A stretch of DNA of 64,000 nt, taken from Serendipita indica DSM 11827. Taxonomy: Eukaryota > Basidiomycota > Agaricomycetes > Sebacinales > Serendipitaceae. The notes beneath the pieces are model-generated. The model was not told the origin of the DNA and ran no database searches. It was given only the letters and a program-made list of their open reading frames with translations. Shown here piece after piece: positions 6,249 to 64,000 of the stretch (the first letter of the stretch is position 1; the number at the start of each line of letters is the position of its first letter). A program made the position numbers and the translations under genes. Location: the NCBI GenBank assembly GCA_910890315.1, contig CAJVGD010000020.1, forward strand, positions 268,691 through 332,690, written 5' to 3'.

Positions 6249-7000
6249 TAAAACTTCGACAGGAAGGTTCTGAGCAGGACCTCCTGTGTTCTTCCAGAGT
6301 TAAGTCTCCCTGGACCATAGAGCGCAAGAGCTTACATCTGTGAGCTGGCGTATTTCATTCGATCTGGTTGAATAAATATCTATATGTTGCATATTCGATG
6401 CCATGTTCGATATTTAAATGCCTAGTTACGGCGAGCGCGGCCAAGCCTGACGAAGACCGTCGGGTGTAGGCTGGAGCAAGAGATGGAGCCACCTTGATAG
6501 CATGTCCACTCTATGATATCCAAGGTGATTAATAGTGTATATTTGCAGGGATGTAGAGCCTATATGTTTCCTAGCTTTGCAATCGACCTCCCTCCTGACC
6601 ACCTAAGGGTCGTTTGGAGTCAGGCACTCACGATGCATGGATCTCTCACTGTGATGAAAGATAGGCCTTGGAAAGAAATCGTCGCGTCGGCTACCGCGTT
6701 AACTTCTGTGCTCTTGGACATAAGTAGATGGGCTTTGTCCTCAAAGTGTAACTCATTTGGACACCGTGTGCACTAGTGCGTGTTATTCAGCGTAGATCAA
6801 CCAGTCGTAGAATCAGATGATCCAATCAGCAGGCACTAACCCGCGCGTACTATTGGCTAGATATCAGACTATAGATTTCGTATGAATCTCATCAACGGCA
6901 CAGCATGCGCCAAGATAGGATTATTTTCCCTCCTACAATTCTTCAAGTGGTACATATGGATGACGACTTTAGATATTGACCGTGATAGAATCCGAACATG
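6249..7000. other. Intergenic between F-box 2 and NLR-A
   Basis: This contains the upstream region of the F-box gene and the 3' flank of NLR-A. An 87-codon open frame at 6513-6776 (plus) has no recognisable motif and no paralogue among the neighbours, so it is not called as a gene. Confidence 0.4.
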
Positions 7001-10000
7001 TTACCAGTGGGAGTCTGTTTGAACATTTGTCCAAGAGGGACCGCATTGAAAGTGCGTAAAGTCGAGGGTGGTTGTCCGTAAGGGGCTTGTTACTGGTATC
7101 GTCAGAACATTCGGATATACCAGGCCATGGCGATTGTCTGGTGGTACCCAGAAGAGAAGCTGATCGGAGGATCGTACCCAGCCATCTTGAGACAATGAAC
7201 ACTGATTGAATCCCGGTACAAGGTTTCCCAACGGAGTACCCCGTGGCTGAGTCCTGAAATCTAAGCCTGAAGGCTCTATGTCTTTCTGGTAGGGGCTCTT
7301 GGAGCAGATGGCTAATGAAAATTTTCAGCTTGATCCCAGAAGCAGAATATGACTGACCAGTACTCGTATTCCATAGCCGAATCGTTCTGTCCGAGGAGCC
7401 AGAGACGATCCGTGAACCATCTGGTGAAAATGCGACGGCCTTGATACCACCATCATGACCTCGAAGTGGCTCCCCCAAAGGCTGCCTAGTTTCGGTCTCC
7501 CAGAGTCGAATGTTCCTGTCCCACGAGCCAGAGACGATCCGCAAGCCGTCCGGTGAAAATTCGACGGCGTACACAGAGTCTTCATGACCGCGAAGGGGCC
7601 CCCCTAACGGCTGACCGGTTTTCGAGTCCCATACTCGAATGGTCTTGTCATCCGACCCGGAGACAATTAGTGAGCCATCTGGTGAAAATGCAACACATCT
7701 GACCCAACTCCCGTGACCTTGAAATGGCTTTCCCACTGGCTGACCAGTTTCTGTATCCCACAGGCGAATTGTATGGTCTTCAGAGCCAGAGACAACTCGT
7801 GAGCCATCGGGGGAAAATGCGACGGCCAAAACTGTGGATTCGTGACCTTGGAAGGGCTCTCCTAACAGCTGACCAGTGTCTACCTCCCAAAGACGAACTG
7901 TTTTGTCCCAGGACCCAGAGACAAGTCGTGCGCCGTCGGGCGAAAAACGGACAGCCCATACCTCGCCATTATGGCCTTGTAGTGGCTGCCGTAACGGCTG
8001 ACCAGTGTCAGCCGCCCACAAACGAATCGTCCAATCGTCGGAACAGGAGGCGATTCGTGAACCATCTGGCGAGAATGCCACGGCCCTTACCCTGTCCTCG
8101 TGCCCTCGGAGTGACTCTCCTATCTGCTGACCAGTGTCCGCCTCCCACAGTCGGATCGTGTTATCTGCTGAGCCGGAAACAATTCGTGAGGCATCTGGCG
8201 AGAATGCAACAGCGTGTACAAAGTCTTCGTGACTTTGGAGTGGCTCTCCCAAAGGCCGACCAGCATCTGCCCTCCAAAGCCGAATGGTCTTGTCTTCGGA
8301 GCCAGAGATGATTTGCAAGCCATCTGGCGAAAATGCGACAGCCCAGACATCTTCTTGGTGACCCCGGAGTGGCTCTCCCAATGAACGGCCAGTGTCTACA
8401 TCCCATAGTCGAATCGTCCTGTCCGCAGAGCCAGAGACAATCCGTGAGCCGTCTAAGGAAACTGCGATGGCATTGATCCCACGTTCATGACCTAGGAGGG
8501 GCCCTCCCAACGGCTGACCCGTAGCTGCCTCCCACATTCGGATTGTCCTATCAGATGATCCAGAGATGACCCTTGAGCCATCTGGCGAAAATGCGATAGT
8601 ATTGACCGCATGTTCATGACCTCGGAACGGTTCTCCCAATGGCCGACCGGTGTCTACCTCCCACAGCCGAATAGTCTTATCCTCTGAGCCAGAGGCAATT
8701 CGCGAGCCATCTGGCGAGAAAGCGACAGCATAGATGCAATCTTGATGACCTCTCAGCGGTTCTCCCAACGGCTGACCGATTCCTGCGTCCCACAGTCGAA
8801 TTACTGTCTCACCCGAGGAGCAGGAGACTATTCGCGAGCCATCTGGCGAAAATGCGATAGCCCATACCTCGTGTTCGTGACCTCTGAGCGGATCACCCAA
8901 TGGGTGACCGGTGTCTGCCTCCCATAGTCTAAGTGTCTTATCACGCGAGCAGGAGACAACTCGTGAACCGTCTGGAGAGAATGCCAAGTCATAGACGTAA
9001 CCTTCGTGACCTCGTAGCGGCTCTCCCAACGGCTGACCGGTGTCCGCGTCCCACAGTCGAATCGTCTTGTCGGTCGAGCAAGAGGCGATCCGCGACCCGT
9101 CAGGGGAGAATTTGACGGCACTGACCAAGTTTTGGTGCCCTCGAAGGATGCTAGGAAGTCCGGGATACACGTCCTCAATCCCCCGGGTGACGGCCAAAGT
9201 ATTTTCGAGTCTCTTTAGGGCCTCAATATGTATCCTTGACTTCTTTGGCGAAAATGGAATCGCAGAGATGTAGATATGTGGTGCACTTTCCTGGATTGGC
9301 ACCGAAAATGCCATAAGGAAACGGCGTATTTCTGTCATACGGCTTCTAGTCTCTTCTTCAAGCTAAATATTGTCAAATACAAGAGCATATTGATATAGAT
9401 CACTCACCCCTCTATGGCGTGTAATGGCTCGAAGTCCGGCTATTGCTCGTGGCACATCTCTCGTGAAGCTCAAGATCTCCATCCAGTGCAGCACATGTGG
9501 GCTTTGAATAATACGCTCAAAGTCGTCCTTGAGCAATTCTCGCCACTTGTTGTCTGTTTCTGCCAAGTGGAGCAACCAATGCGAGCTCGCGTATCTAAGC
9601 CTTTTCGGAATGAACTTTGATATCCTCGCGTCAAGGTCCTCTATCTGCCTATTCGGATAGAAAGATGACTGTATTTGACAAATGTTGAACTTGACGCCTT
9701 CGGTCGGTGAATTGAGGCGTTTCAGACACCACGACGCCGCCTGACCATGTGCATTGGCCACGTTAATAGAGACCTTATTGGGGCCATCGACGTCTGAGGT
9801 CTGAGAGCGGCGTCGAAGGTATTCGACGAGGGTGGGATGCCGGAATCGGATTTGCTTTGTACTCGGATCCACACTAAGGACGCTTCCCAGATTCTGAACC
9901 AGCGCGTTCACACTCCCGCGTACTCCAGCGTGCTTGAGAAGGTCCTCCAAGTCGTCGACGGTGAGCGGCTCGAGTGCTGCAAGCAGCAGACCGAGCATAC

Positions 10001-12447: not shown

Positions 12448-15400
12448 CTAGTTGGAGTTCGTTCGAACATTTGTCCACGAGGAACCGCATCGAAAGTGCG
12501 TAAAGTCGAGGGTGGTTGTACGCAAGTGACTTGTCACTGGTATCGTCAGACGATTCGGATATACCAAGCCGTGACGATTGTCTGGCGGTACCCAGAAAAG
12601 AAGCTTATCGGAAGATTGCACCCAGCCATCTTGAGACAATAAGCAATGATTGAATCCAGGTACATGGATTCCCAAGGGATCACCCCGTGGCTGGGGCCCG
12701 AAATCTAAGCCTGAAGGCTCTATGTCTTTCTGGTAGGGACTCTTGGAGCAGATAGCTAATGAAAATTGTCAGGTTAATTCCAGAAGCAGAAATAAGACTG
12801 ACCAATATCTACATCCCATAGCCGAATCGTCCTGTCCGAGGAGCCAGAGACGATCCGTGAGCCATCTGGTGAAAATGCGACGGCCTTGATGCCACCGTCG
12901 TGAGCTCGAAGCGGTTCCCCCAAAGGCTGCCTAGTTTCGGTCTCCCAGAGTCGAATGTTCTTGTCCCACGAGCCAGAGACGATCCGCAAGCCGTCTGGTG
13001 AAAATGCGACGGCATTGACGTGATTTTCATGACCTCGGAGTGGCTCTCCCAAAGATTGACAGGTTTCTGAATCCCATAGTCGAATTGTCTTGTCATCCGA
13101 CCCGGAGACAATTAGTGAGCCATCCGGTGAGAATGCAACGCATTTGACCCAACTCTCGTGACCTTGGAGTGGCCCTCCCAATAGTTGGCCAGTCTCCGAC
13201 TCCCACAGTCGGATAGTACAGTCCTCCGAGCCAGACACAATTCGTGTGCCATCAGGGGAGAACGCGACGGCCAAAACCGTGGATTCGTGACCTTGGAGGG
13301 GCTCCCCTAGAGGCTGGCCAGTGCCCACTTCCCAAAGTCGAACCGTCTTGTCCCAGGAGCCAGAGACAATTCGTGAACCATCAGGCGAGAATCCGATGGC
13401 CATCACCGGGCCGGTTTGACCTTGGAGTGGCTGCCCTGAAGGCCGACCGGTGTCTGCCTCCCATAGTCGAATCGTATTGTCATCCGAGCAAGAGGCGATT
13501 CGTGAGCCATCCGGAGAGAATGCGACGGCATTGACACAACCGGTGTGCCCTCGAAGTGGCTCTCCCAAAGGCTGACCGGTGTCTGCTTCCCAAAGTCGGA
13601 TTGTATTGTCTTTCGAGCTGGAGACAATTCGAGAGCCATCTGGGGAGAATGCGATTGATAAGATGGCGTCGTCGTGAGTTTGGAGTGACTCCCCCAGAGG
13701 CTGACAAGTTTCTGCTTCCCATAGTCGAATCGTTGTGTCAACCGAACCGGAGACGATTCGCAAACCATCGGGCGAGAAACCTACGGTCCATATCTCGCCT
13801 TCGTGACCTTGAAGTGGTTCTCCCAATGCCCGGCCAGTGTCTGTGGCCCACAGTCGAATCGTCCTGTCCCACGAACCAGAAACGATTTGTGAGCCATCTG
13901 GCGAGAATCTGACGGCTAGGACTGATTTTCTGTGACCTCGGAGCGGTTCTCCTAATGGGTGACGTGTGTCTAAGTCCCAAAGTTGGATTGTCTTGTCAGA
14001 TGAGCCAGACACAATCCACAAGCCTGCTGGAGAGAATGCAACGGAGTTCACCCCTTTTTTGTGACCTCGAAATGGATCTCCCACCATTCGACCAGTATCT
14101 ACGTCCCAAAGTCGAACCGTCCGGTCGTCCGAGCCAGAGATGACCCTTGAGCCGTCTGGTGAGTACGCGACCGCGTTTACTGCGCCTTCGTGACCGTGGA
14201 GTGGTTCGCCTACCGGCTGGCCAGTATCCGTATCCCAAAGTCGAATTGTGCTATCTTCCGATCCAGACACAATTCGTGAGCCGTCTGGTGAGAATGCGAC
14301 GGCCAAAACTGTGGATTCGTGACCTTGGAAGGGCTCGCCTAACGGCTGACCAGTGTCTACCTCCCAAAGTCGAATTGTCTTGTCATCCGAGCAAGAAACG
14401 AGTTGTGAGCCGTCAGGGGAGAATGCGATGTCAAAGACATGACCTTCATGACCTCGCAGTGGCTCTCCCAATGGTTGACCAGCGTCTGCGTCCCACAGTC
14501 GAATCGTCTTATCAATCGAGCTAGAAGCGATTCGCGACCCATCCGGGGAAAATATGACAGCGCTGATCAAGCCTTGGTGACCTCGAAGAGATCTGGGAAG
14601 TACGGGATACACCTCCTCAACCCCTCGAGTCGCAGATAAACAGCTCGCATACGTTTTTAGTCCCTCTATATGCATTCTTGAGTTCTGAGGCGAAAACGGA
14701 ATCGCAGAGATGTAGATATGTGGCACACTTTCCTGGATCGGCACCGAAAACGTCATAATAAACCGTCGAATCTCCGTCATACGGCTTCTGGTGTCTTCTT
14801 CGAGCTTTATATCGTTTAATACAAGAGTATATCACCATAGATCACTCACCCCTCTATGGCGTGTAACGGCTCGAAGTCCGGCAATCGCTCGTGGCACATT
14901 TCCCATGAAGCTCAAGATCTCCATCCAGTAAAACACACGTGGGATTTGAATAATGCGCTCTACTTCCCTCTTGAGCGTACCTCGCCACTTATTATCCGTT
15001 TCCGCCAAGTGAAACAACCAATGCGAGCTCGCGTATCCAAGTTTTCTTGGAATGAACTCTGATATCCTCGCGTCAAGGTTCGCTATCTGCCTATTCGGAT
15101 AGAAAGATGACTCGATTTGGCAAATGTTGAACTTGACACCTTCGGTCGGTGAATTGAGGCGTTTTAGACACCACGACGCCGTTTGACCGTGTGCATTGAC
15201 CACGTTGATATAGACCTTGTTATGGCTATCGACGGCTGAAGCTTGGGAGCGGCGTCGAAGGTACTCGACCAGAGTGGGATGACGGAATCGGATTTGCCTT
15301 GTATTTGGGTCTACACTAAGTACGCTTCCCAAATTCTGAACCAGGGCATTCACGCTCCCGCGTACTCCAGCGTGTTTGAGAAGGTCCTCGAAGTCGTCCA

Positions 15401-36025: not shown

Positions 36026-39000
36026 ATGTCCATGTCATGGTTCGAACGCAAAGGCAAGACTCCTCGTTCAAAGGACACCAGTAACCAACCCGGCCCTCAA
36101 TCAAATGCGTCAAGTCCAAGCACAAGCAGCCGCTCTGACAGAGTGCGCGATACCGCCATTCCGATTCTCGACCTCGTCGCCAACATCTCAGAAGCATCTG
36201 ATGCGCTTGCCTCTCTCAAAGCGGCATGTAGAGCTACAAAGCAGATCCTCGAGATAGCACGCGTATGTCTGACGGATGTGTTTGACTTGTCTGATGGCAC
36301 AGATAGGCTGCCCAGAACAACAAAAAAGATTGGAAACGTCTCTTTGAGCGGCTACAAGGTCATTTGGAGTCGATGGAGAGCCAGATAGCCATATTCGAGG
36401 AGCATCCAGAGAAGAACCACCAGGTGGACGACTCGTTGCGACAACCACTACTAGTCTATGTCAGGCAAGTTTAATACTCCAGGGTCGGGCACTCATCTTA
36501 TGGCCTGGACAGAAAGCTCGATGAAATACAGAAAACAGTTGAAGCACGAACGCGTTCACGACTGTTGACTCGAGCAATGAAAGTTGATATGGACGCAGGA
36601 GATATCCGAGAGTTTCATCAAGACATTGACGATTGTCACCAAAGACTTACGGTACGGGCCACGGAGACCTCTTATTTTCGTACTGATGACATCTCAGGCT
36701 GCTCTAGCCGTATCGTCTTCACTTCATATTCAAGCTGTCAAGGGTGACACCGAGGTTTTGAGAGTGGATACGCAAGTCATCAAAGAGAATACTAAGACCC
36801 TACTGAAAGATGGTAAGCGTGCGTTCTTGACACAGTCGCTCTGCCTGACCATTCTCAGCGGATATAATGATCATTTCTCAACTCCCAGTTGTTATTTCGA
36901 CATCTTCTATCGTTCATAATCGCTGCAATCCGGGAACACGAGTCACTGTTCTTGATTCTATCCGCCGTTGGGGAGAAGGCGAGTTTGCCGAGCCGATCTT
37001 CTGGCTCTGCGACATTGCTGGTTCTGGTAAATCGACAGTGTCGATGAGCATGATTGCACTTTGGAAGGAGACAGGCCTACTCGGTGGTTACTTCTTCTTC
37101 TCGATCGCCACTACTGAGGAGTCGACCATTACCAAAATGTGTCCGACTTTCGCCCGGCAAATGTTCGAAAACATCACCACACTGGCCCCATCTATCGCGG
37201 ATGCGGTCAAACAACACCCCTCGATCATGACGAGCACATTCGAGGAGCAGTTCCAAAGACTAATCGTGGAGCCAACGAAGCATCAGAACAAGCGGGTCAT
37301 ATTGGTCATTGATGCACTCGACGAATGCACGTCTGGACTACAACGAAGAAGGCTCGTCGAGACGCTTTCCATCGCCGTTCGGGAAAGTACGAATCTCAAG
37401 ATATTCATGACAAGTCGACCGGATCCTGTCATCCAAGCGGTCTTAGGATCACTTCCAATCAAAGCCAAGATGGAAGACCGGCTACACGATGCCAGCCATG
37501 GTGATAACATCAACGACATTGCAATCTATATAGAATATCTGATCAATGGAACGCTGGCTGAGGAGAAGAAGCGACGGTTGGTCAAGAATGCCAACGGGCT
37601 GTTCATCTGGGCAAGCACCGCATGTCGAATGCTGAAAAGCGAAACGACATTGGATACCCAGGACAGCATATACGAACGTCTTGTTTCAGTGGATCAGACT
37701 GGAGATATAGACGATGTATACGATCTCATTTTCGAGAGAACAGACCCGAAATCTCTCGCAACAATGTGTAGTATGCTCGGTATTCTGCTTGCGGTGTTCG
37801 AGCCGCTCGCTGTGGACGAGTTGGAGGATCTTCTCAAGCATGCTGGAGTACGCGGAAGTGTGAATGCCCTGGTTCAGAATCTGGGAAGCGTCCTTAGTGT
37901 GGATCCAAATACAAGGCAAATCCGATTCCGTCATCCCACTATGGTCGAGTACCTTCGACGCCGCTCCCAGGCCTCAACCACTGATAGCCACAATGCAATC
38001 TCTATCGACAGGGTCAATGCACATGGTCAAGTGGCTTCGTGGTGTCTGAAACGGCTCAACTCACCGACCGAAGGCGTCAAGTTCAACATTTGCCGAATCG
38101 AGTCATCGTTCTATCTGAATAGGCAGATAGCAGACCTTCATACGAGGGTATCAGAGTTCATCCCGAGAAAACTTGGATATGCGAGCTCGCATTGGTTGTT
38201 TCACTTGGCGGAAACGGACGACAAGTGGCGAGATGCACTCAAGAAGGAAGTAGAACGCATTGTTCAAAGTCCGCGTGTGTTTCACTGGATGGAGATTCTG
38301 AGCTTCACAAGAGCGGTGCCACGAGCAATAGCCGGCCTTCAAGCCGTTACACGCCACGGCCGGGTGAGTGATCTATCGCGGTATGCCTTTGTATCTAACG
38401 AGATATAGGTTCAAGGAGAAACTAGGGGCCGTATGACGGAGATACGTCGGTTTCTTATGGCGTTTTTGGTGCCGATCCAGGAAAGTGCATCACATATCTA
38501 CATCTCTGCGATTCCATTTTCGCCCCGGAAGTCAATACTGCATATTGAAGGCATGGAAAGCTACGCAAATGGCTTGATTGTGAGCCAAGGGGTTGAGGAA
38601 TTATATCCGGGTCTTCCCAGAACTCTTCGTGGCCACCAAGACTTGGTTACTGCCGTCGTATATTCTCCTGACGGATCGAGAATCGCCTCCAGCTCGATCG
38701 ACAACACAATCCGTCTATGGGAGGCGGACACTGGCCAACTGTTAGGGGAACTGCGAGGGCATGAAGATGACGTTTACGCCGTCGCATTCTCGCCAGATGG
38801 CTCACGAGTCGCCTCTGGCTCCAACGACAAAACGATTCGCCTCTGGGAAGTAGAAACTGGTCGGCCATTGGGTGACCCGCTCCAAGGCCATGAACATGGG
38901 GTCAACTCCGTAGCATTCTCGCCAGATGGCTCGCGAGTCGTTTCTGGCTCTGGAGACAATACAATTCGAATATGGGACGCAGACACCGGTCTGCCGTTGG

Positions 39001-40765
39001 GAAAGCCCTTCCGAGGTCACGAAGACGGGGTCAATTGCGTGGCGTTCTCACCAGACGGCTCACGTATTGTTTCCGGTTCCGACGACAATACCATTCGGTT
39101 CTGGGATCCAGAAACTAATCTACCGCTGGGAGAACCCCTTCGATCTCACCAATCCCAGGTCAATTCTGTTGCATTTTCGTCAGATGGCTCGCGAATCGCC
39201 TCTAGCTCTAACGACAAAACAGTTCGGCTGTGGGACGTAGATAGTGGCCAGCCATTAGGGAAGCCCCTTCGAGGTCACAAAAACTCGGTCCTTGCCGTGG
39301 CATTCTCTTCAGATGACTCAAGAATTGTCTCCGGCTCTTGTGACAGGACAATTCGATTGTGGGAGGCAGACACTGGTCAACCATTGGGAGAGCCACTGCG
39401 AGGTCATGAAGGTTACGTCTTTGCCCTCGCATTCTCGCCAGATGGCTTACGAATCATCTCTGGCTCCGAAGACAAGACCATTCGGATTTGGAAGGCAGAT
39501 ACTGGCCAGCCTTTAGGAGAGCTACCTCGGGGCCATGAATCGTCAATCCTGTCAGTTGCGTTCTCTCCAGACGGCTCGCAAATCATCTCTGGCTCGTCCG
39601 ACAAGACAATTATACGGTGGGATGCGGTCACCGGTCATCTAACTGGTGAGCCACTTCAAGGTCATGAAGCGTCAGTCATTGCCGTCGCATTCTCGCCAGA
39701 CGGTTCCCAAATCCTCTCAAGTTCGGAGGATACGACAATTCGACGATGGGAAGCAGCTACTGGCCGGCAGTTGGGAGAGCCGCTACAAGGTCAGAAATTC
39801 TTGGTCAACACCGTCTCATTCTCTCCGGACTGCTCACGCATCGCCTCCGGCTCACCCAACGGGACAATTCATCTGTGGGATGCAGACACTGGTCAGCAGC
39901 TCGGAAAGCCATTCCGAGGTCATGAAGGTTGGGTGAACGCCATCGCATTCTCGCCCGACGGCTCGCAGATCGTCTCCGGCTCCGACGATAAGACAGTTCG
40001 ACTGTGGGAGACAGACACTGGCCAGCCCTTGGGGGAGCCGCTCAGGGGTCATAACGGCTGGGTGAGGGCCGTTGCATTTTCGCCAGATGGCTTACGAATC
40101 GCCTCTGGCTATTCCGACGGGATTATTAGACTATGGGAGGCGGAAGCTGGTAGGCCATTGGGAGAACCACTCCGTGGCCACGAGTTCTCAGTCTGGGCCG
40201 TCGCATTCTCGCCAGATGGCTCACGGGTCATTTCTGGATCTGAAGACAACACAGTTCGACTTTGGGATGCAAACACTGGTCTACCGTTGGGAGGGCCACT
40301 CCAAGGCCATAACGATAGCGTTAGGGCCGTGGCATTCTCGCCAGACGGCTCACGTATCGTTTCCGCCTCAGCCGATAGAACAATTATGTTATGGGATGCA
40401 ACCCTTGGTTAGTTTCAGCCCCATCTACGGGACCAATCTGACGATTACCATCAGCTACTAGCTCCAAGAACTCCGAACGCCAAGGTACCGGCGCTGGAGA
40501 TATAGGTCTGAAATCTGCGTCACTGGATACTCCCCCGGAAGTACTCGTACCGGGATTCAATCAGTGTACATTATCGCAGGATGGCTGGGTGCAATCTTCC
40601 GATAAATTTCTCTTCTGGGTACCACCAGACAACCGGCATGGCCTAGTATATCCAAATCTTCTGACAATACCAGTAACGAGCCCTTTACGGACAACAACAC
40701 TTGACTTCACCCACTTTCAATGTGGTCCCTCTTGGACAAATGTTCGAACAAATTCTGACCGGTGA
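36026..40765 (+). CDS. NACHT-WD40 STAND receptor, subfamily 1 (NLR-C)
   Basis: Seven exons (36026-36262, 36316-36464, 36513-36651, 36698-36812, 36859-38363, 38409-40407, 40485-40765) give 1474 aa. The first five exon lengths equal those of NLR-A and NLR-B, and the GC-AG intron is conserved (36465-36512). Walker [10 protein letters not shown], Walker [13 protein letters not shown], the [12 protein letters not shown] linker, 14 WD repeats, and the last-exon module [22 protein letters not shown] are intact. Repeat 10 has GQ for GH, as in NLR-B. Repeat 12 has [11 protein letters not shown], an atypical strand-d turn. The last intron (77 nt) ends in AAG at the position corresponding to NLR-A and NLR-B, and the exon after it is divergent for about 20 residues. 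It lies opposite in orientation to the other receptors and 386 bp before the exonuclease gene. Confidence 0.85.
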
Positions 40766-51043: not shown

Positions 51044-54000
51044 CTAGTCATTCCTGGCTTCTGTCACTCGTGTCCACTCTTCTCCATAGACAGATCGGGA
51101 TAGGTCAAGTTCCAACCTTTGACATTGACCGATGATACGAACTCCGTGTCGAACAAGGCCGGTGCGAAACTGAGCCGGAACCCAGAAAAGCGGCTTGCCA
51201 TCTGGTGTGAGCAACCATCCATCGCCGTCAATTACGGAGTGGAGATTAGGAAGCAGATCCTTTAGCTAGTTCAGTATAGCCACGAAACGCAAAGTCGAAA
51301 ACGCTTACGAGGTTTTCACTGGTCAAATTCCACAGCCGCACAGTCGTGTCACTCGAACCAGACACAACAGAACAGCCATCTGGCGAGAATGCGACGGATG
51401 TGGCAAAGTCTGTATGTCCTCTAAGTGGCTGCCCAATTTGCTCTCCTGTCTCTGCATCCCATAATCGTACCGTCCGGTCGTCCGAGCATGATACAATGCG
51501 ACCGCCATCCGGGGAGAATGCGACCGAGTTGATATCGCCACTATGCCCGATAAATGGCTGTCCAATCTTCTCTCCCGTTTCTACATCCCACATTCGTATC
51601 GTCCAGTCTTTCGAGCCAGATACGACACGGTGACCGTCCGGTGAAAATCTGGCCGAAATGACCCAGTTTGTATGTCCTTCAAGCGGTTGTCCAATCTGCT
51701 TGCCTGTCTCTACATCCCACAATCGTACTGTCTTGTCATCCGAGCCAGATGCGATACGACAACCATCTGGCGAGAATGCGACCGATAAGACCCGGCTTTC
51801 ATGTCCTTCAAGCGGCCCTCCAATCTGCTCGCCTGTCTCTGCATCCCACAATCGTACTGTCTCATCCTCAGAGCCAGACACAATACGACGGCTATCTGGA
51901 GAGAATGCAACAGACCAAACCTCGTCTGTATGTCCTTGAAGTGGCTTCCCAATTTGCTCTTTTGTCTCTACATCCCATAATCGTACCGTCTGATCCTCCA
52001 AGCCAGAGACGAGACGACGACTATGTGGCGAGATTGCAACGGAGTTGACTCGGCTCGTATGTCCTTCAAGCGGCTGTCCAATCTGCTTGCCTGTCTTTGC
52101 ATCCCATAATCGTACTGTCTTGTCGCCCGAGCCAGATGCGATACGGCAACCATCTGGCGAGAACGCAACCGACATGACCGCGTCTGCGTGTCCCTCGACT
52201 GGCTGCACAGTAGCTTCCCCTGATCCTGCACCCCACAATCGGACTGTCCTGTCAGCTGAGCCAGATGCAATGCGGCGACCATCCGGCGAGAATGCGATGG
52301 ATGTAACTGGGTCTGCATGACCTACAAGCGGCTGACCGACCTGCTTTCCTGTCTCCACATCCCACAATCGCACCGTATTGTCACCCGAGCTGGAGGCAAT
52401 ACGATAGCCATCGGGCGAGAATATGACCGAAAGGACAAAGCTTGCATGTCCTTCGAATGGCTTTCCTATCTGTTTGCCCGTTTCTATATCCCACAATCGT
52501 ACTGTCTGATCCTCCGAGCCAGATATGACATGGTTACCATCTGGCGAGAATGCGACTGACCGGACCGGTCCTGTATGCCCTTTAAAGGGGTCCCCCATCT
52601 GTTCCCCTGTTTTTATATCCCACAATTGTGCTGTATGATCGTTCGAGCCGGATACGATATGACAACCATCTGGCGAGAACGCAACTGACCTAACCCAGCC
52701 TGTGTGCCCTATAAGTGACTGCCCGACCTGCTGGCCTGTCTCTACATCCCACAATCGGACTGTCATGTCATCCGAGCCAGATGCGATACGACGATCATCG
52801 GGGGAACAGGCGACCGACCTGACCCAGTCTGTATGTCCTTGAAATGGCTGTCCGATCTGCTCGCCTGTCTTGGCATCCCACAATCTTACTGTGTTGTCAC
52901 CTGCTCCTGATACAATACGGCAACCATCTGGCGAGAATGTCACGGAATTGACTTGTCCCGTATGTCCTTCAAGTGGCTGTCCAATTTGCTTGCCTGTTTC
53001 GGCGTCCCACAGCCGTATCGTCTTGTCCTCCGAGCCAGAGGCGATGCAATCACCGCATGGAGAGATTGCAACAGCCCAGATACCCCCGCCATGACCACGT
53101 AAAGTTAGAACAAGTGACGACCAGCTTTGATAACCGCCAGCACAAACGATCAGCCGATTTCTGAAACGATCCTGGTATTCCCTCTTCACCTCTGAAGATG
53201 AAGGGGAGAGCGAAAATGCAGAAATATAGATATGTGCTGCACTTGACGAGATTGGTTCAATGAAATGGTTCGTGAACCGAAGCATGTCCGTGGCGAATGG
53301 TATCAGGCTCCCACCATTGTTTAGCTAGGAGTGGTCAGTGAGAGACCTTAATACTGAATGGAGTCACCTTCAGCCACGCGATCAATGGAATTAGGATAGA
53401 CGGTAAGGCGTGTGCAAATGAGCATAAACTTGCGACCTCGAGCCAAGAGAGGAAATGATTCTTGAGGATGTATCTAATGCGTTCCATTGTTTCTGCATCC
53501 GGAGGTGTACCTTCCAAGTGGTCTACCCAATATCGCGATGCGTACTGTAAACAGGATGGGATGTAGTCTTCTATGGATGAGACTGCATTCAAGATATCGC
53601 TATTGAGTAGATATGACGACGAAATCTCGCAAATATTGAATCGTAGCCTCTCTGCCATCACCCGTAGGCAATGATCAGCAAGAATCTGATTACAGTCGCT
53701 CGTGACAATCTGGAGTTCCGAATCTGTTACTTGCTGGTTCAATAGAAAGTCCACAAACGACTGATGGCGAAAGCGGGCACCCTCCCTCATTTCCAGCACG
53801 GGCCGCAGAGCGTTGCATATGTGCTCGACGGTTGAGAGGTCGATTGCAAGGAGCTCAGCAATTGTCCGTATGTCCAGAGTCGTCCTGGCGACGATAATCG
53901 CACCAAGTATCATCTGTAATTCTTGAATTGTTTGGCTTTCTGCGTTAGGGAAAGCCGCATTGATAACTTTGCCGTAGAGAGCGTTCATACCCATATTGCT

Positions 54001-55775
54001 TTCAGTATGCATTATCTCCTCTAGAAGTTTCTTTGGATTACCACGGCGGACGTACTCCACCAATGTTGATGCCCAAATGAACAACCCGTCGGCTTTGATC
54101 GCGAGTGCTTCGATGGTAGCTACCCCAGGCCATCCTGCAGGCAGAGAAGAGTACTCTTTGGCGGTTTCCTTAAGCTCCTCACTCAGAAATGCTTGAATAT
54201 CTCTTCTCGACTGATTGATCGTCTCTTCTCCGACGAGCAAATCGATCATATATGGTGTTCTAGGACCAGTAAAGATCCTTGCTATCGCGGCCTCTTCGCG
54301 ACTTGTCACAATCAGCTTGCAGCTGGACGGGAGATCAGACCACGCCGCAAGCGTACGAATGAGGTTGCGAAATTCTGTCGACCGGACACCTTCCAGTCCA
54401 CCACACTCATCCAATGCGTCGAGGACAACTATAGGTGATTGATCGCCAACGATCGTGCCAATCTTGGATAGTGGCTCTCCGACCAACTGATGAAAGACAG
54501 CGTCAATGTTTGGCGCCGTTAGGTCGATCTCTTCATTGTCCATCTTGTGTGCGAGGTGTCGGCGAATGGTAGGGTGCCGTGCTAGATCATACGCGATACC
54601 TTGCCAGACCGTGCTGATCGTGATAGTTGCCGTCTGTTGACGGCTGAAGAAGAAGCTCGATCCTAGGCGTGTCCTCTTGATGCCGAGCGTAGTCACCAAT
54701 GTAGATGCAATGGCAGACTTGCCAGCTCCGGGGGCGGCTTTTATCCAAAGGATATTTGGGGCATTAAGGTCTTTGGACCAGGCTTCACATTTGGCCAGTA
54801 TCTCAACGCGTGTTCCTGATTGGCACTCTCGTGGACGTTGGCGAGGCTTGGATCGCAGATCTTTCAAGATGTCCTTCTCCGCAGTCTTCTGCACCGACAC
54901 TGTGACATAGAGCATGAGAGCTTCCTACGCAGAATGAACAGTTTGAACTCATTAGAATGCAGTTACCAACCATCAACCCGCGTTTGGCATCCGTCAATTG
55001 TCGTTGATACGTAGCGATGGTGTCCGCCTCTAGCCTCGTAGTGCCTATACGTTGAGCCAGTATCTTCAAGGTGATACCCTTGTCGATATCGTATTCCTTG
55101 AGTCCCGAATCTACGCAGATATCGATGACCAACTCCTTGAGGGTGCTGTGCGAATGAGTTTCCATCGAAGAAGGAATTGACAAACCCACGTAGTATAATC
55201 CATGACCGGACCGCTAATAGACTTTTCACACTCTTCGAGTATGTCCTTGATGCCCAGCTGGTCGAGCTGCCGTTGAAGTGCCGTGTTATGCTCTCGGACC
55301 GTCCGCAGGAGCTCGGACCAGGCGGACTGGTTATCTTTGACTGCCTTGAACTTCATGAGCACACATAGTCACAATAGATTTGCAGAATTACCTGAATGGA
55401 ACCTAGGAGAGTGACCATGCCTTCACATGCTCCTTTTAATGGCGCGAGGCCGCCTGCATCAGCGGCACTCTTGGTCAAATCAAGTACTAAAGCCGCTCGA
55501 GCAAGCCATTTGTCCGTCTTGGATCCGAGGGTCGACCGGTCAGCGTCTTGCCGAGTTTGGGATTGTGCGTTTATTTGGGCAGTAGATGGAGTTTTTGGCC
55601 TCTCCATCTGGCCTATTTCATGAGCAGTAGCATCGTTGTTTGTTGGTATGGCAATCGATGCTGCGGTGCTCGTGGAGGCTTCTATAAGACTCGTCGGTGC
55701 TGTAGAGATATTTGCGTTTTGCACCTCTTTACTGTTCTTAGGCTTCTTGAATATCTTCTGAAAGAGAGACATCAT
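51044..55775 (-). CDS. NACHT-WD40 STAND receptor, subfamily 2 (NLR-D)
   Basis: Six exons (55775-55392, 55350-55190, 55145-54971, 54924-53368, 53324-51309, 51265-51044) give 1504 aa with the frame kept. The N-terminus starts MMSLFQKIFKKPK and is Ser/Thr-rich. It then has a helical domain (ALVLDLTKSAADAGGLAPLK, QSAWSELLRTVREHN) and a segment ALMLYVTVSVQKTAEKD just before NACHT. Walker A is AAPGAGKSA and Walker B PIVVLDALDEC. A linker with AHIYISAFSLSP leads to 14 WD repeats of 43 aa, some with degenerate signatures (SPCGD, SPDDR, SPHSR). The last exon encodes DGWLLTPDGKPLFWVPA-QFRTGL and ends SVYGEEWTRVTEARND. It differs from NLR-A/B/C in exon layout and NACHT sequence but has the same architecture. 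Cytosolic receptor, function inferred. Confidence 0.85.
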
Positions 55776-61698: not shown

Positions 61699-64000
61699 TC
61701 ACGACTCATTGCTGGCTTCTGCCACTCCTGTCCACTGTTCTCCATAGACAGATCGGGACAGGTCAACCTCCAATCTTTGGCATTGGCCGATGATACGAAC
61801 GCCGTGTCGAATAAGGCCAGTGCGAAACTGAGGCGGAACCCAGAAGAGCGGCTTGCCATCTGGTGTCAGCAACCACCCTTCCTCAACCGAGGTTGTTGAA
61901 AGAGTTGAGCTAGGATTAGATACAGGTGACGAGGATGAGGATAACCGAGATGACGAGGATGAGGATAGCCGAGATGACGAGGATGACGAGGATGACTGGG
62001 ACAGCTGGGACAACTCAGACGACAAGGGCGTCGAGCGGAAAAGAGGGCTAGCTCTTATCACAGAATGAAGATTAGGAAGCAAATCCTTTGGGTGGTTAAG
62101 TATAGGTATGAAACGCGGGGTTGCAGACGCTTACGAGGTTTTCGATCGCCAATTCCCACAACCGCACAGTTCCATCACCCGAACCAGACACAATAAATCG
62201 ACTATCTGGCGAGAAATTGGCCGATAGGACAAAGTTGGTATGCCCTACAAGTGGCTGTCCAACCTGTTCGTACGTCTCTGCATCCCACAGTCGCACTGTT
62301 TGGTCCTCGGATGTGGATAGAATGCGACTACCACCAGGTGAGAATGCAACCGATGTGACCGCACTCGTATGTCCTTCAAGCGGCTCTCCTATTTGCCTGC
62401 GGGTCTTTGCATCCCATATTCGCACCGTGTTGTCTTCCGAACCGGATACAATCTGAAGACCATCTGGCGAGAATGCAACAGACAAGACCGGGCTTGTATG
62501 TCCTTCAAGTGGCTCTCCCATCTGTTTGCCCGTATTTGCATCCCACAGCCGTATAGTCTTGTCTTTCGAACCCGATACAAAATGGCCACCATCTGGCGAG
62601 AATGCGACCCAATGGACTGGCCCTGTATGTCCTTCCAATGCCTCTCCTATTTGCTCCCTTGTCTCAGTGTCCCATAGACGTATCGTCTCGTCATCCGAGC
62701 CAGATACAATGCGAAGACCATCTGGTGAGAATGCAACCGACAAGACGGCGTCTGTATGTCCTTCAAATGGCTCCCCTATTTGCTCGCCTGTCTTAACATC
62801 CCATAGTCGTACTGTCTCGTCGTTTGATCCAGATACAATAAGGCGACCATCCGGTGAGAATATGACCGAGTTGATATCACTTGTATGCCCTTCCAGTGGC
62901 TCTCCAATTTGTTCGCCTGTTTCTGGATTCCACAATCGTATGGTCTTATCAATGGAGCCAGATACAATACGACGACCGTCCGGCGAAAATGCGACCCAGC
63001 AGACCGAATCTGTATGTCCTTCAGGCGACTTTCTAATCTGCCTGCCTGCCTCGACATCCCAGAGTCGTACTTTCATGTCATCTGACCCAGATACAACGCG
63101 ATGACCATCCGGCGAGAATGCGACTGATGAGACCGAGTGTGTGTGTCCTATCAGTCCCTGTCCGACTTGCTTGCCTGTCTTTGCGTCCCAGAATCGTACT
63201 GTCTCGTCTTCCGAGCCAGATGCGATGTAAAGACTATCAGGAGAGAATGCTACTGACGTAATAGAGCCAGTATGTCCCTCAAGTGGCTGTCCAATCTGCT
63301 CCCCTGTCTCTGCGTTCCACAATAATAACGTCTCGTCTTCCGACCCAGATACGATGCAAAGACCATCCGGTGAAAACGCAACCGAGGAGACCAAGTCTGC
63401 GTGTCCTTCGAGCGGCTCTCCTATCTGGTCGCCTGTCCCTACTTCCCATAGTCGCACTGTCTCATCTTCTGAACCAGATACAACGCGACGACCATCTGGC
63501 GAGAATGCGACCGACGAGACAGACTCCGTATGTCCTTGGAACGGCTGCCCGACTTGCTCGCCTGTCTCTACGTCCCATAACCGTATCGTCTCATCGTCTG
63601 AGCCAGATACGATTTGACGACCATCCGGTGAGAATGCCACAGACATGACCGAGTCTGTATGTCCTCCAAGCGACTCCCAAAGCTGCTTGCCTGCCTCTAC
63701 ATCCCAGAGTCGTACTGTCGAATCATCTGAGCCAGAAGCAATACGGCGACCATCCGGCGAGAATGCGACCGACCAGACCGGATCTGTATGTCCTTCAAGT
63801 GGCTCTCCTATCTGCTCGCCTGTTTCTGCATCCCAGAACCGCATCGTACCGTCTTCGGAGCCCGATACGACGCGATGACCATCTGGAGAAAATGCAACAG
63901 TTGTCACCCCACTATCATGTCCGCGGAACGTGAGAAGAAGTGGAGACCAGTTTTGATAGCCACCCGAGCAAACAACCAGCGCGTTTGGGAACCGACTCTG
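61699..64000 (-). CDS. NACHT-WD40 STAND receptor, subfamily 2 (NLR-E), 3' part
   Basis: The window ends within the WD-repeat exon (64000-62135), which continues off the right edge. The last exon is 62085-61699, with a 49-nt intron (62086-62134, acceptor AAAG). Visible are the pre-repeat segment LVVCSGGYQNWSPLLLTFRGH, as in NLR-D, and 14 WD repeats, several of them very alike ([32 protein letters not shown]). The C-terminal module is VEEGWLLTPDGKPLFWVPP-QFRTGL ... SVYGEQWTGV, ending SNES. The final exon is about 55 codons longer than in NLR-D because of a Ser-rich insert. The NACHT domain lies outside the window. It is a tandem paralogue of NLR-D. Confidence 0.83.
61917..62013 (-). repeat. Ser-rich minisatellite in the last exon of NLR-E
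   Basis: On the plus strand this is an array of GAGGATGA/GACGAGGATGA words. On the coding strand it encodes runs of five to eight serines separated by Arg-Leu. It is absent from the equivalent place in NLR-D, where the linker is only a few residues. Replication slippage is the likely origin. Confidence 0.7.

Follow-up and report, generated by a model that had tools for sequence, protein, structure and literature searches.

A conserved C-terminal module of NACHT-WD receptor genes in Serendipita indica, also found in other Agaricomycetes

The closest described systems are HET-E and HET-D, NACHT-WD NLRs of the HNWD family of Podospora anserina whose WD domain ends in cryptic repeats. According to a study of HET-E, 11 canonical and 3 cryptic repeats add up to 14, the cryptic C-terminal repeats diverge from the canonical ones and are modelled as the last blades that complete the second propeller, and the cryptic region is highly diverged between paralogues (PMC12222747). 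Excerpts from surveys of fungal NLRs give the C-terminal part of the proteins as WD, ANK or TPR repeats, with no mention there of a conserved end-piece.

Here we describe a short segment, referred to below as the module, that ends immune-receptor-like NACHT-WD genes of the root-associated fungus Serendipita indica DSM 11827. The window, that is, the whole stretch of 64,000 nucleotides analysed, forms the end of contig C20 in an assembly of 24.7 Mb and 55 contigs. The module takes the same place as the cryptic repeats of HET-E and HET-D, to which we liken it by description and not by sequence; unlike them, it follows 14 canonical repeats and is conserved between paralogues and between fungal orders. 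Among the open-licence papers listed on the C-termini of fungal NLR, NACHT and WD40 proteins, none describes it in the title or the start of the abstract, the excerpts consulted of PMC3192844, PMC4986451, PMC9815663, PMC10197012 and PMC12222747 do not mention it, and a text search for ‘LFWVP’ returned one unrelated paper.

Five receptor genes and their last exons

Five WD arrays were found in the window, in genes A to E, and the module lies behind all five. The host genes combine the two parts of a NACHT-WD NLR, a NACHT-type NTPase exon with a P-loop and a C-terminal WD40 array. In gene D, on the minus strand, the NACHT-type exon (53335..54924, limits of the open frame; NPHP3_N at 84.9 bits in Pfam; P-loop AAPGAGKS) precedes a WD exon (51309..53324, upper limit that of the open frame) with 14 WD repeats of period 43 aa. 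The 14th repeat ends VRLWNLTSENL and is followed by a 49-nt GT-AG intron (51308-51260; GTAAGC...CTAAAG, phase 0) and by the last exon (51044..51259), which reads DLLPNLHSVIDGDGWLLTPDGKPLFWVPAQFRTGLVRHGVRIIGQCQRLELDLSRSVYGEEWTRVTEARND-stop and holds the core, from GW to the stop codon, at 51044-51220. The P-loop is PGAGKS in gene D and AGSGKS in the NACHT exons of genes A–C; gene E, the array of which starts 72 nt from the contig end, is cut before its NACHT exon. A hidden Markov model (HMM) built from the family’s own repeats counts 14 in each of the five genes, and the spans of array plus module, with a period of ~43 residues, are 7004-9362 (A), 12451-14831 (B), 51047-53324 (D) and 61702-64000 (E) on the minus strand and 38409-40762 (C) on the plus strand.

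In all five genes, the last exon encodes a conserved C-terminal core, GW-x(7-8)-LFWVP-x(3)-R-x-GL ... [LV]-D-[FL]-[ST] ... G-x-x-W-T, and the distance from GW to the C terminus is 58–60 residues. Besides gene D, the exons, with limits predicted from splice sites in the genomic sequence rather than from transcripts, lie at 7001..7311 (A, core 7001-7183), 12448..12755 (B, core 12448-12627) and 61699..62085 (E, core 61699-61878) on the minus strand and at 40455..40765 (C, core 40583-40765) on the plus strand. An earlier note on this DNA, made from the sequence, had placed the start of the exon correctly in gene E, 30 nt late in A, B and C, and 6 nt early in D. It had also given DGW as common to all five genes, which is so for A, B, C and D; gene E has EEGW in its place. 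A strict six-frame search of the 64-kb window for DGW...(L)(F)W(V)P accordingly returned the copies in A, B, C and D and no others, and a looser pattern recovered all five together with two unrelated chance matches. The copies fall into two types, that of A–C, with an LTIPVTS string, and that of D and E. Between genes A and D, the module is 36% identical over 61 residues, and the NACHT exon 26–28%. The presence of the module in both receptor subfamilies, as the note had proposed, is confirmed.

The short intron that the note had seen between the WD exon and the last exon is present in all five genes and measures 46–49 nt: 7312..7357 (A, 46 nt), 12756..12802 (B, 47 nt) and 62086..62134 (E, 49 nt) on the minus strand and 40408..40454 (C, 47 nt) on the plus strand, in addition to that of gene D. 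It interrupts the frame in phase 1 in A, B and C and in phase 0 in D and E, so an identical splice position is not common to both subfamilies. Across 49 copies (two of them duplicates), with splice sites picked by rule rather than from transcripts, 25 introns are in phase 1 and 19 in phase 0, and 5 copies read straight through; the split tracks the module type, with one evident exception (L048).

Between the last W of the array and the W of GW lie from 21 residues (gene D) up to about 80 (gene E and locus L061). In gene E, a Ser-rich stretch of 59 residues immediately precedes GW. The linkers ahead of the module are hot spots for tandem repeats, with a Ser-rich stretch in gene E (61879-62085) and (SNADTSE)n in L061 (L061:230-652).

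Core and linker also differ in their constraint. By Nei–Gojobori counts, dN/dS of the core is 0.04–0.33 in 18 of 18 pairs of copies, with core dS from 0.08 to over 2 and the amino acids retained. In the 11 A-type pairs, the linker gave 0.38–1.25 and lay above its own core every time. In the 7 D-type pairs, it exceeded the core in 3 and had no value in 3, and the D/E pair was reversed (linker 0.10 versus core 0.25, on about 11 synonymous linker sites). The conserved part is therefore kept as protein: the core is maintained by purifying selection, and the linker is freer. The note was right in describing a conserved module, which is selectively maintained, and a variable linker before it.

Copies across the genome and in other fungi

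The module is present in at least 171 places in the S. indica genome, some with internal stop codons, when two queries are taken together. With the D-type query, we obtained 36 places, comprising 21 that are D-type by reading, 14 shared with the A-type list and 1 second piece of a broken copy; with the A-type query, the best 150 of 197 candidates were scored, and all were matches. For comparison, excerpts of published surveys give 99 NWD ORFs (PMC3192844) and 274 NLR candidates (PMC4986451).

Pairing with NACHT exons is frequent. Among the 150 best-scoring NACHT exons (of 258 candidates), 134 have a module on the same strand within 8 kb downstream, at a median distance of 3.6 kb; in the controls for the same 150 exons, 24 have a module upstream and 3 have one on the opposite strand. 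Eight of the 16 exons with no listed module were inspected. Four had a weaker, diverged or frame-broken module, L065 runs off its contig, L063 and L064 belong to other classes, and downstream of L068, which has 14 WD repeats, the module was not found. A NACHT search with L063 as the query led to 12 places of a further class with no listed module within 8 kb downstream (C15:508737, C1:2566770, C29:165447, C38:26388, C21:190445, C40:1652383, C16:484321, C7:69596, C14:15692, C4:99492, C40:468246 and C31:33904). These 12 places weaken any claim of universality; the module is common, but not universal, among the NACHT genes of this fungus.

The length of the array before the module varies. In a set of loci that is not a random sample, repeats were counted in the 28 distinct places where over 600 nt lie ahead of the array. 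Exactly 14 were counted in 16 of them; the counts in the remaining 12 are 1, 1, 2, 4, 5, 7, 8, 13, 15, 16, 16 and 20, and several of these 12 are visibly broken. The intron-free copies L038 and L039 have 15 repeats each.

D-type modules crowd near contig ends, with 15 of 21 within 30 kb. Of the 150 A-type places, 122 are on contigs whose length is known, and 15 of these 122 lie that close to an end, where about 13% would be expected. In the window, the end of contig C20 is 13.0 kb from gene D (51044) and 2.3 kb from gene E (61699). Six D-type modules lie 1.1–1.4 kb from a contig end, and four of these (C1, C18, C22 and C29) are nearly identical. TTAGGG arrays were not present at the three contig ends read, which leaves a ‘subtelomeric’ label unproven.

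In the protein database, the A-type query matched 5 proteins, all from S. indica, and the D-type query, over the length range searched, matched none at E up to 0.01, with 33 candidates scored; a last exon that is short and separate may easily be overlooked. With a profile of 29 last exons, 4042 candidates yielded 84 proteins at E up to 10, and for 79 of these E did not exceed 1e-3. Nine named matches lie outside Serendipita, in six species: Amylostereum chailletii (Russulales), Athelia psychrophila and Piloderma croceum (Atheliales), Suillus subaureus and S. luteus (Boletales) and Mycena polygramma (Agaricales). With S. indica (Sebacinales), the module is known from five Agaricomycete orders. 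The consensus of 62 cores not assigned to Serendipita reads GW-x(6)-eLLFWVPP-x-x-R-x-gL-x-x-p-x-n-x-x-vi-x(4)-t-x-lD-x-s-x-FvHG-x-x-W-x-x-C. The database matches are 51–237 residues long and represent fragments and short models. Pfam domains, WD40 or beta-propeller models each time, are listed for 38 of the 84, and none for 46, some of the printed domain lists being incomplete. The position of the module is C-terminal, with the chain ending 44–57 residues past the start of the motif in 81 of 87 motif proteins (89 examined). Searches of prokaryotes and viruses with one or two conserved peptide patterns gave 13 and 24 pattern matches, none of which was confirmed.

Comparison with named domains, WD repeats and predicted structures

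Pfam reports no family above its gathering cut-off over the module, either in the 5 last exons or in 41 members of the family. The five exons are touched by two sub-threshold matches, Phage_186_Fil and PUMA, and ‘unnamed’, the word of the earlier note, still holds. In the 41 members, WD40 or propeller models match up to 4, which we take as flanking WD repeats, and the same PUMA match recurs in one (0.0006, 20.6 bits, cut-off 26.4); PUMA was rejected as chance, as was Phage_186_Fil (0.039, 14.1 bits, cut-off 25). A PDB sequence search with the profile from other fungi gave 0 matches at E up to 1, WD proteins included. Antibody VH domains, which by our own reading have a string resembling the W-V-x-x-PP-x-x-GL of the module, had reached E 0.0035 at best with a 10-sequence profile and disappeared with an independent one; this match, too, we put down to chance.

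In every gene of the window, the module comes directly after matches to the WD40 repeat (PF00400) and Pfam beta-propeller models, yet these models give no sign of covering it and have no profile similarity to it. The WD HMM scores at most 0.7 bits on 112 cores and at least 59.7 bits on 29 held-out WD repeats. In hhalign, the module, or the module-less tails described below, gave 0.1–1.7% against canonical or degenerate WD repeats, inside the column-shuffle nulls where these were shuffled, whereas WD positive controls gave 97–100%. By sequence, then, the module is not a recognisable WD repeat, and the earlier suggestion that it might prove to be a degenerate WD blade found in all WD proteins does not hold in that form, as WD profiles are blind to it.

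A possible relative lies within the genome itself. The module-less NACHT-WD genes L063 and L064 led to small families. The L063 tail runs NGWIHSAFPPGPIVPIPTHLR...GNTMLVWTRTSEPLIFDFSEFVSH-stop (its end was read from SLLTYANGWIHSAFPPGPIVPIPTHLR to GNTMLVWTRTSEPLIFDFSEFVSH, then stop), and a second, partial and broken copy of the tail lies about 100 bp past the first. The L063-type class comprises 10 tails (L063 and L073–L081); L063 is the only member whose reading is complete, and its own WD repeats are degenerate. A NACHT exon lies within 4 kb upstream on the same strand for 9 of the 10 (none is listed for L078), which strengthens the class; in L074, the roughly 0.3 kb from the NACHT match to the tail leaves no room for a WD array. 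The tails are C-terminal like the module and colinear with it from DGW to DFS-x-F, but they have neither LFWVPP as such nor the (V)HG-x-x-W-x-x-C extension.

In hhalign, the tails align with the 62 non-Serendipita cores over 47 columns, from DGW to FV, with a score of 26.6, and 100 column shuffles reached at most 22.2. Against all 112 cores, 46 columns align at 47.8% with E 1.9e-4, a value for a single comparison that is somewhat optimistic because the likeness had been spotted by eye before the test and three tail types were looked at. Probabilities of 43–48% against the module profiles are only suggestive; the tail ends at nearly the same point as the module. Against the D-type profile alone, the register was kept at a non-significant 1.2%, and the ends of L063 and L064, taken singly against the module HMM, scored 1.1 and 1.0 bits, which 4 and 6 of 100 shuffles reached. 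The tails of L070–L072 are likened to those of the L063 type by eye only; that of L072 (GRSIALGSTNGQVMLLDFGEVER-stop) has a second half that resembles, again by eye, the b–c strands of a blade. The loci L063 and L070–L081 represent further NACHT classes, in which WD repeats are degenerate and the C-terminal ends are related. Given the colinear likeness, we read the module as probably the same terminal element of the last propeller, plus a short extension. No named domain was returned for the module, but it is not a free-standing novelty, as a colinear segment ends another NACHT class.

An AlphaFold2 model of the intron-free copy L038 (811 aa, 70 sequences) has a mean pLDDT of 76.3 and a pTM of 0.52. 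Fourteen blades are well formed, and the degenerate 15th repeat and the linker are disordered. Four short strands predicted in the module, at 735-737 and 747-749 before DGW, 754-757 from its W onward and 760-764 at LFW, follow one another as in a d–a–b–c blade; the second half has a helix at 767-773 and then no strands. The pLDDT is 67–83 in blocks over 731-770 and 48–58 onward to 810. For the gene D exon alone (pLDDT 65.7, pTM 0.42), a hairpin and helices at 31-37 and 62-71 were predicted, with a strand–strand–helix core at pLDDT 72–87 and values of 47–59 after residue 40. Foldseek and VIA-align searches with the AlphaFold2 models returned propellers for the WD part and no fold match for the module. 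The propellers that aligned best with the first eight repeats of the L038 model are ones that we take to be eight-bladed; a ‘2 x 8’ reading of the blades was dropped, as a pTM of 0.52 and interchangeable repeats make blade counts unreliable.

What the module may be

We give a probability of roughly 0.45 to the reading that the module is a retained but divergent end-piece, a cryptic, non-WD terminal blade with a short extension, which caps or closes the second propeller in the two-propeller sensor of Agaricomycete NACHT-WD receptors. From the final WD repeat, typically the 14th, a linker that is short or flexible would lead to the module. Its DGW, LLFWVP, T-x-VIG and T-x-LDFS-x-F segments would pack against the edge of the second propeller, closing or capping the ring. 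The ring could then stay stable while the intervening WD repeats are exchanged and diversified, and the strictly C-terminal (V)HG-x-x-W-x-x-C extension, at a fixed place, may help to hold the receptor at rest. We infer the blade identity, the docking on the second propeller and the capping or closing role because the module goes with WD arrays (all 5 in the window, and downstream of 134 of the 150 NACHT exons that score best), because a terminal position (81 of 87) goes together with low core dN/dS, because ten module-less tails are colinear with it above the shuffle null, and because of the strand order in L038 and the HET-E precedent. The ends of ascomycete NACHT-WD proteins may read W-I...LLWLPPEYRP...AIG-x-x-SGRV-x-I, a pattern in keeping with a cryptic blade. 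Among the roles that the earlier note had offered, the colinear end of another NACHT class would favour propeller closure.

Several observations point away from a terminal blade. No profile link to WD repeats was found, the second half of the module is non-beta in the AlphaFold2 models, and the arrays already have 14 repeats, enough for two seven-bladed rings. A variable linker of 21 to about 80 residues is as compatible with a tethered domain as with a packed blade. The main alternative, somewhat less probable in our view, is a small independent C-terminal domain on a flexible linker, which binds a shared partner (a chaperone, an inhibitor or a signalling component) or latches back on the NACHT domain. 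It would account for linkers of very different length, some with tandem repeats (gene E and L061), and a fixed interface would fit the three (nearly) invariant Trp and the Pro, Arg, Asp and Gly that are kept across five orders. The closer identity of the core than of the NACHT exon between subfamilies (36% versus 26–28%) and the strand–strand–helix core predicted for the exon alone (pLDDT 72–87) point the same way. However, the 38 Pfam-bearing matches are all propeller proteins, although the 46 bare ones, all short (51–237 aa), leave room for free-standing copies or other architectures, and a similar segment at the end of a module-less NACHT class suggests the receptor’s own end rather than an acquired adaptor.

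That the module is merely one more blade, a degenerate 15th WD repeat, seems improbable to us. By eye, SL-x-x-DGW...LFW can be laid on AFSPDG...IRLW, with the same strand order and the same spacing of D-G and W, and the AlphaFold2 strands come in that order; set against this are the WD HMM scores (0.7 versus at least 59.7 bits), profile comparisons that stay within shuffled nulls, and a core that is conserved in its own right, with LFWVPP, R and G-x-x-W absent from WD repeats. With paralogues in at least 171 places and WD arrays that differ in length, the family could also conserve an exon as DNA rather than as protein, by gene conversion or as a recombination anchor for the 3′ end of shuffling arrays. 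This we regard as very improbable: it is mostly refuted by dN/dS, core dS rises to over 2 with the amino acids kept, the A-type linker in the same exon is unconserved, and the protein motif is common to other orders.

If one fixed end-piece acts as a common closing and latch element for a large share of Agaricomycete NACHT-WD receptors, which we consider unlikely, a single conserved site would be common to well over a hundred receptors of one fungus, the WD sensors of which change fast. That site could set the rest state or let a common factor reach the whole repertoire. A general closing element would be the constant part of a sensor that otherwise diversifies; it would help to recognise receptor genes that are complete and offer a concrete site for asking how receptors are kept off. 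In gene A (6969-9362, minus strand), no stop codon closes the WD frame in the intron or anywhere in the last exon, where the module is encoded in another frame; retention of this intron would yield a receptor without the module.
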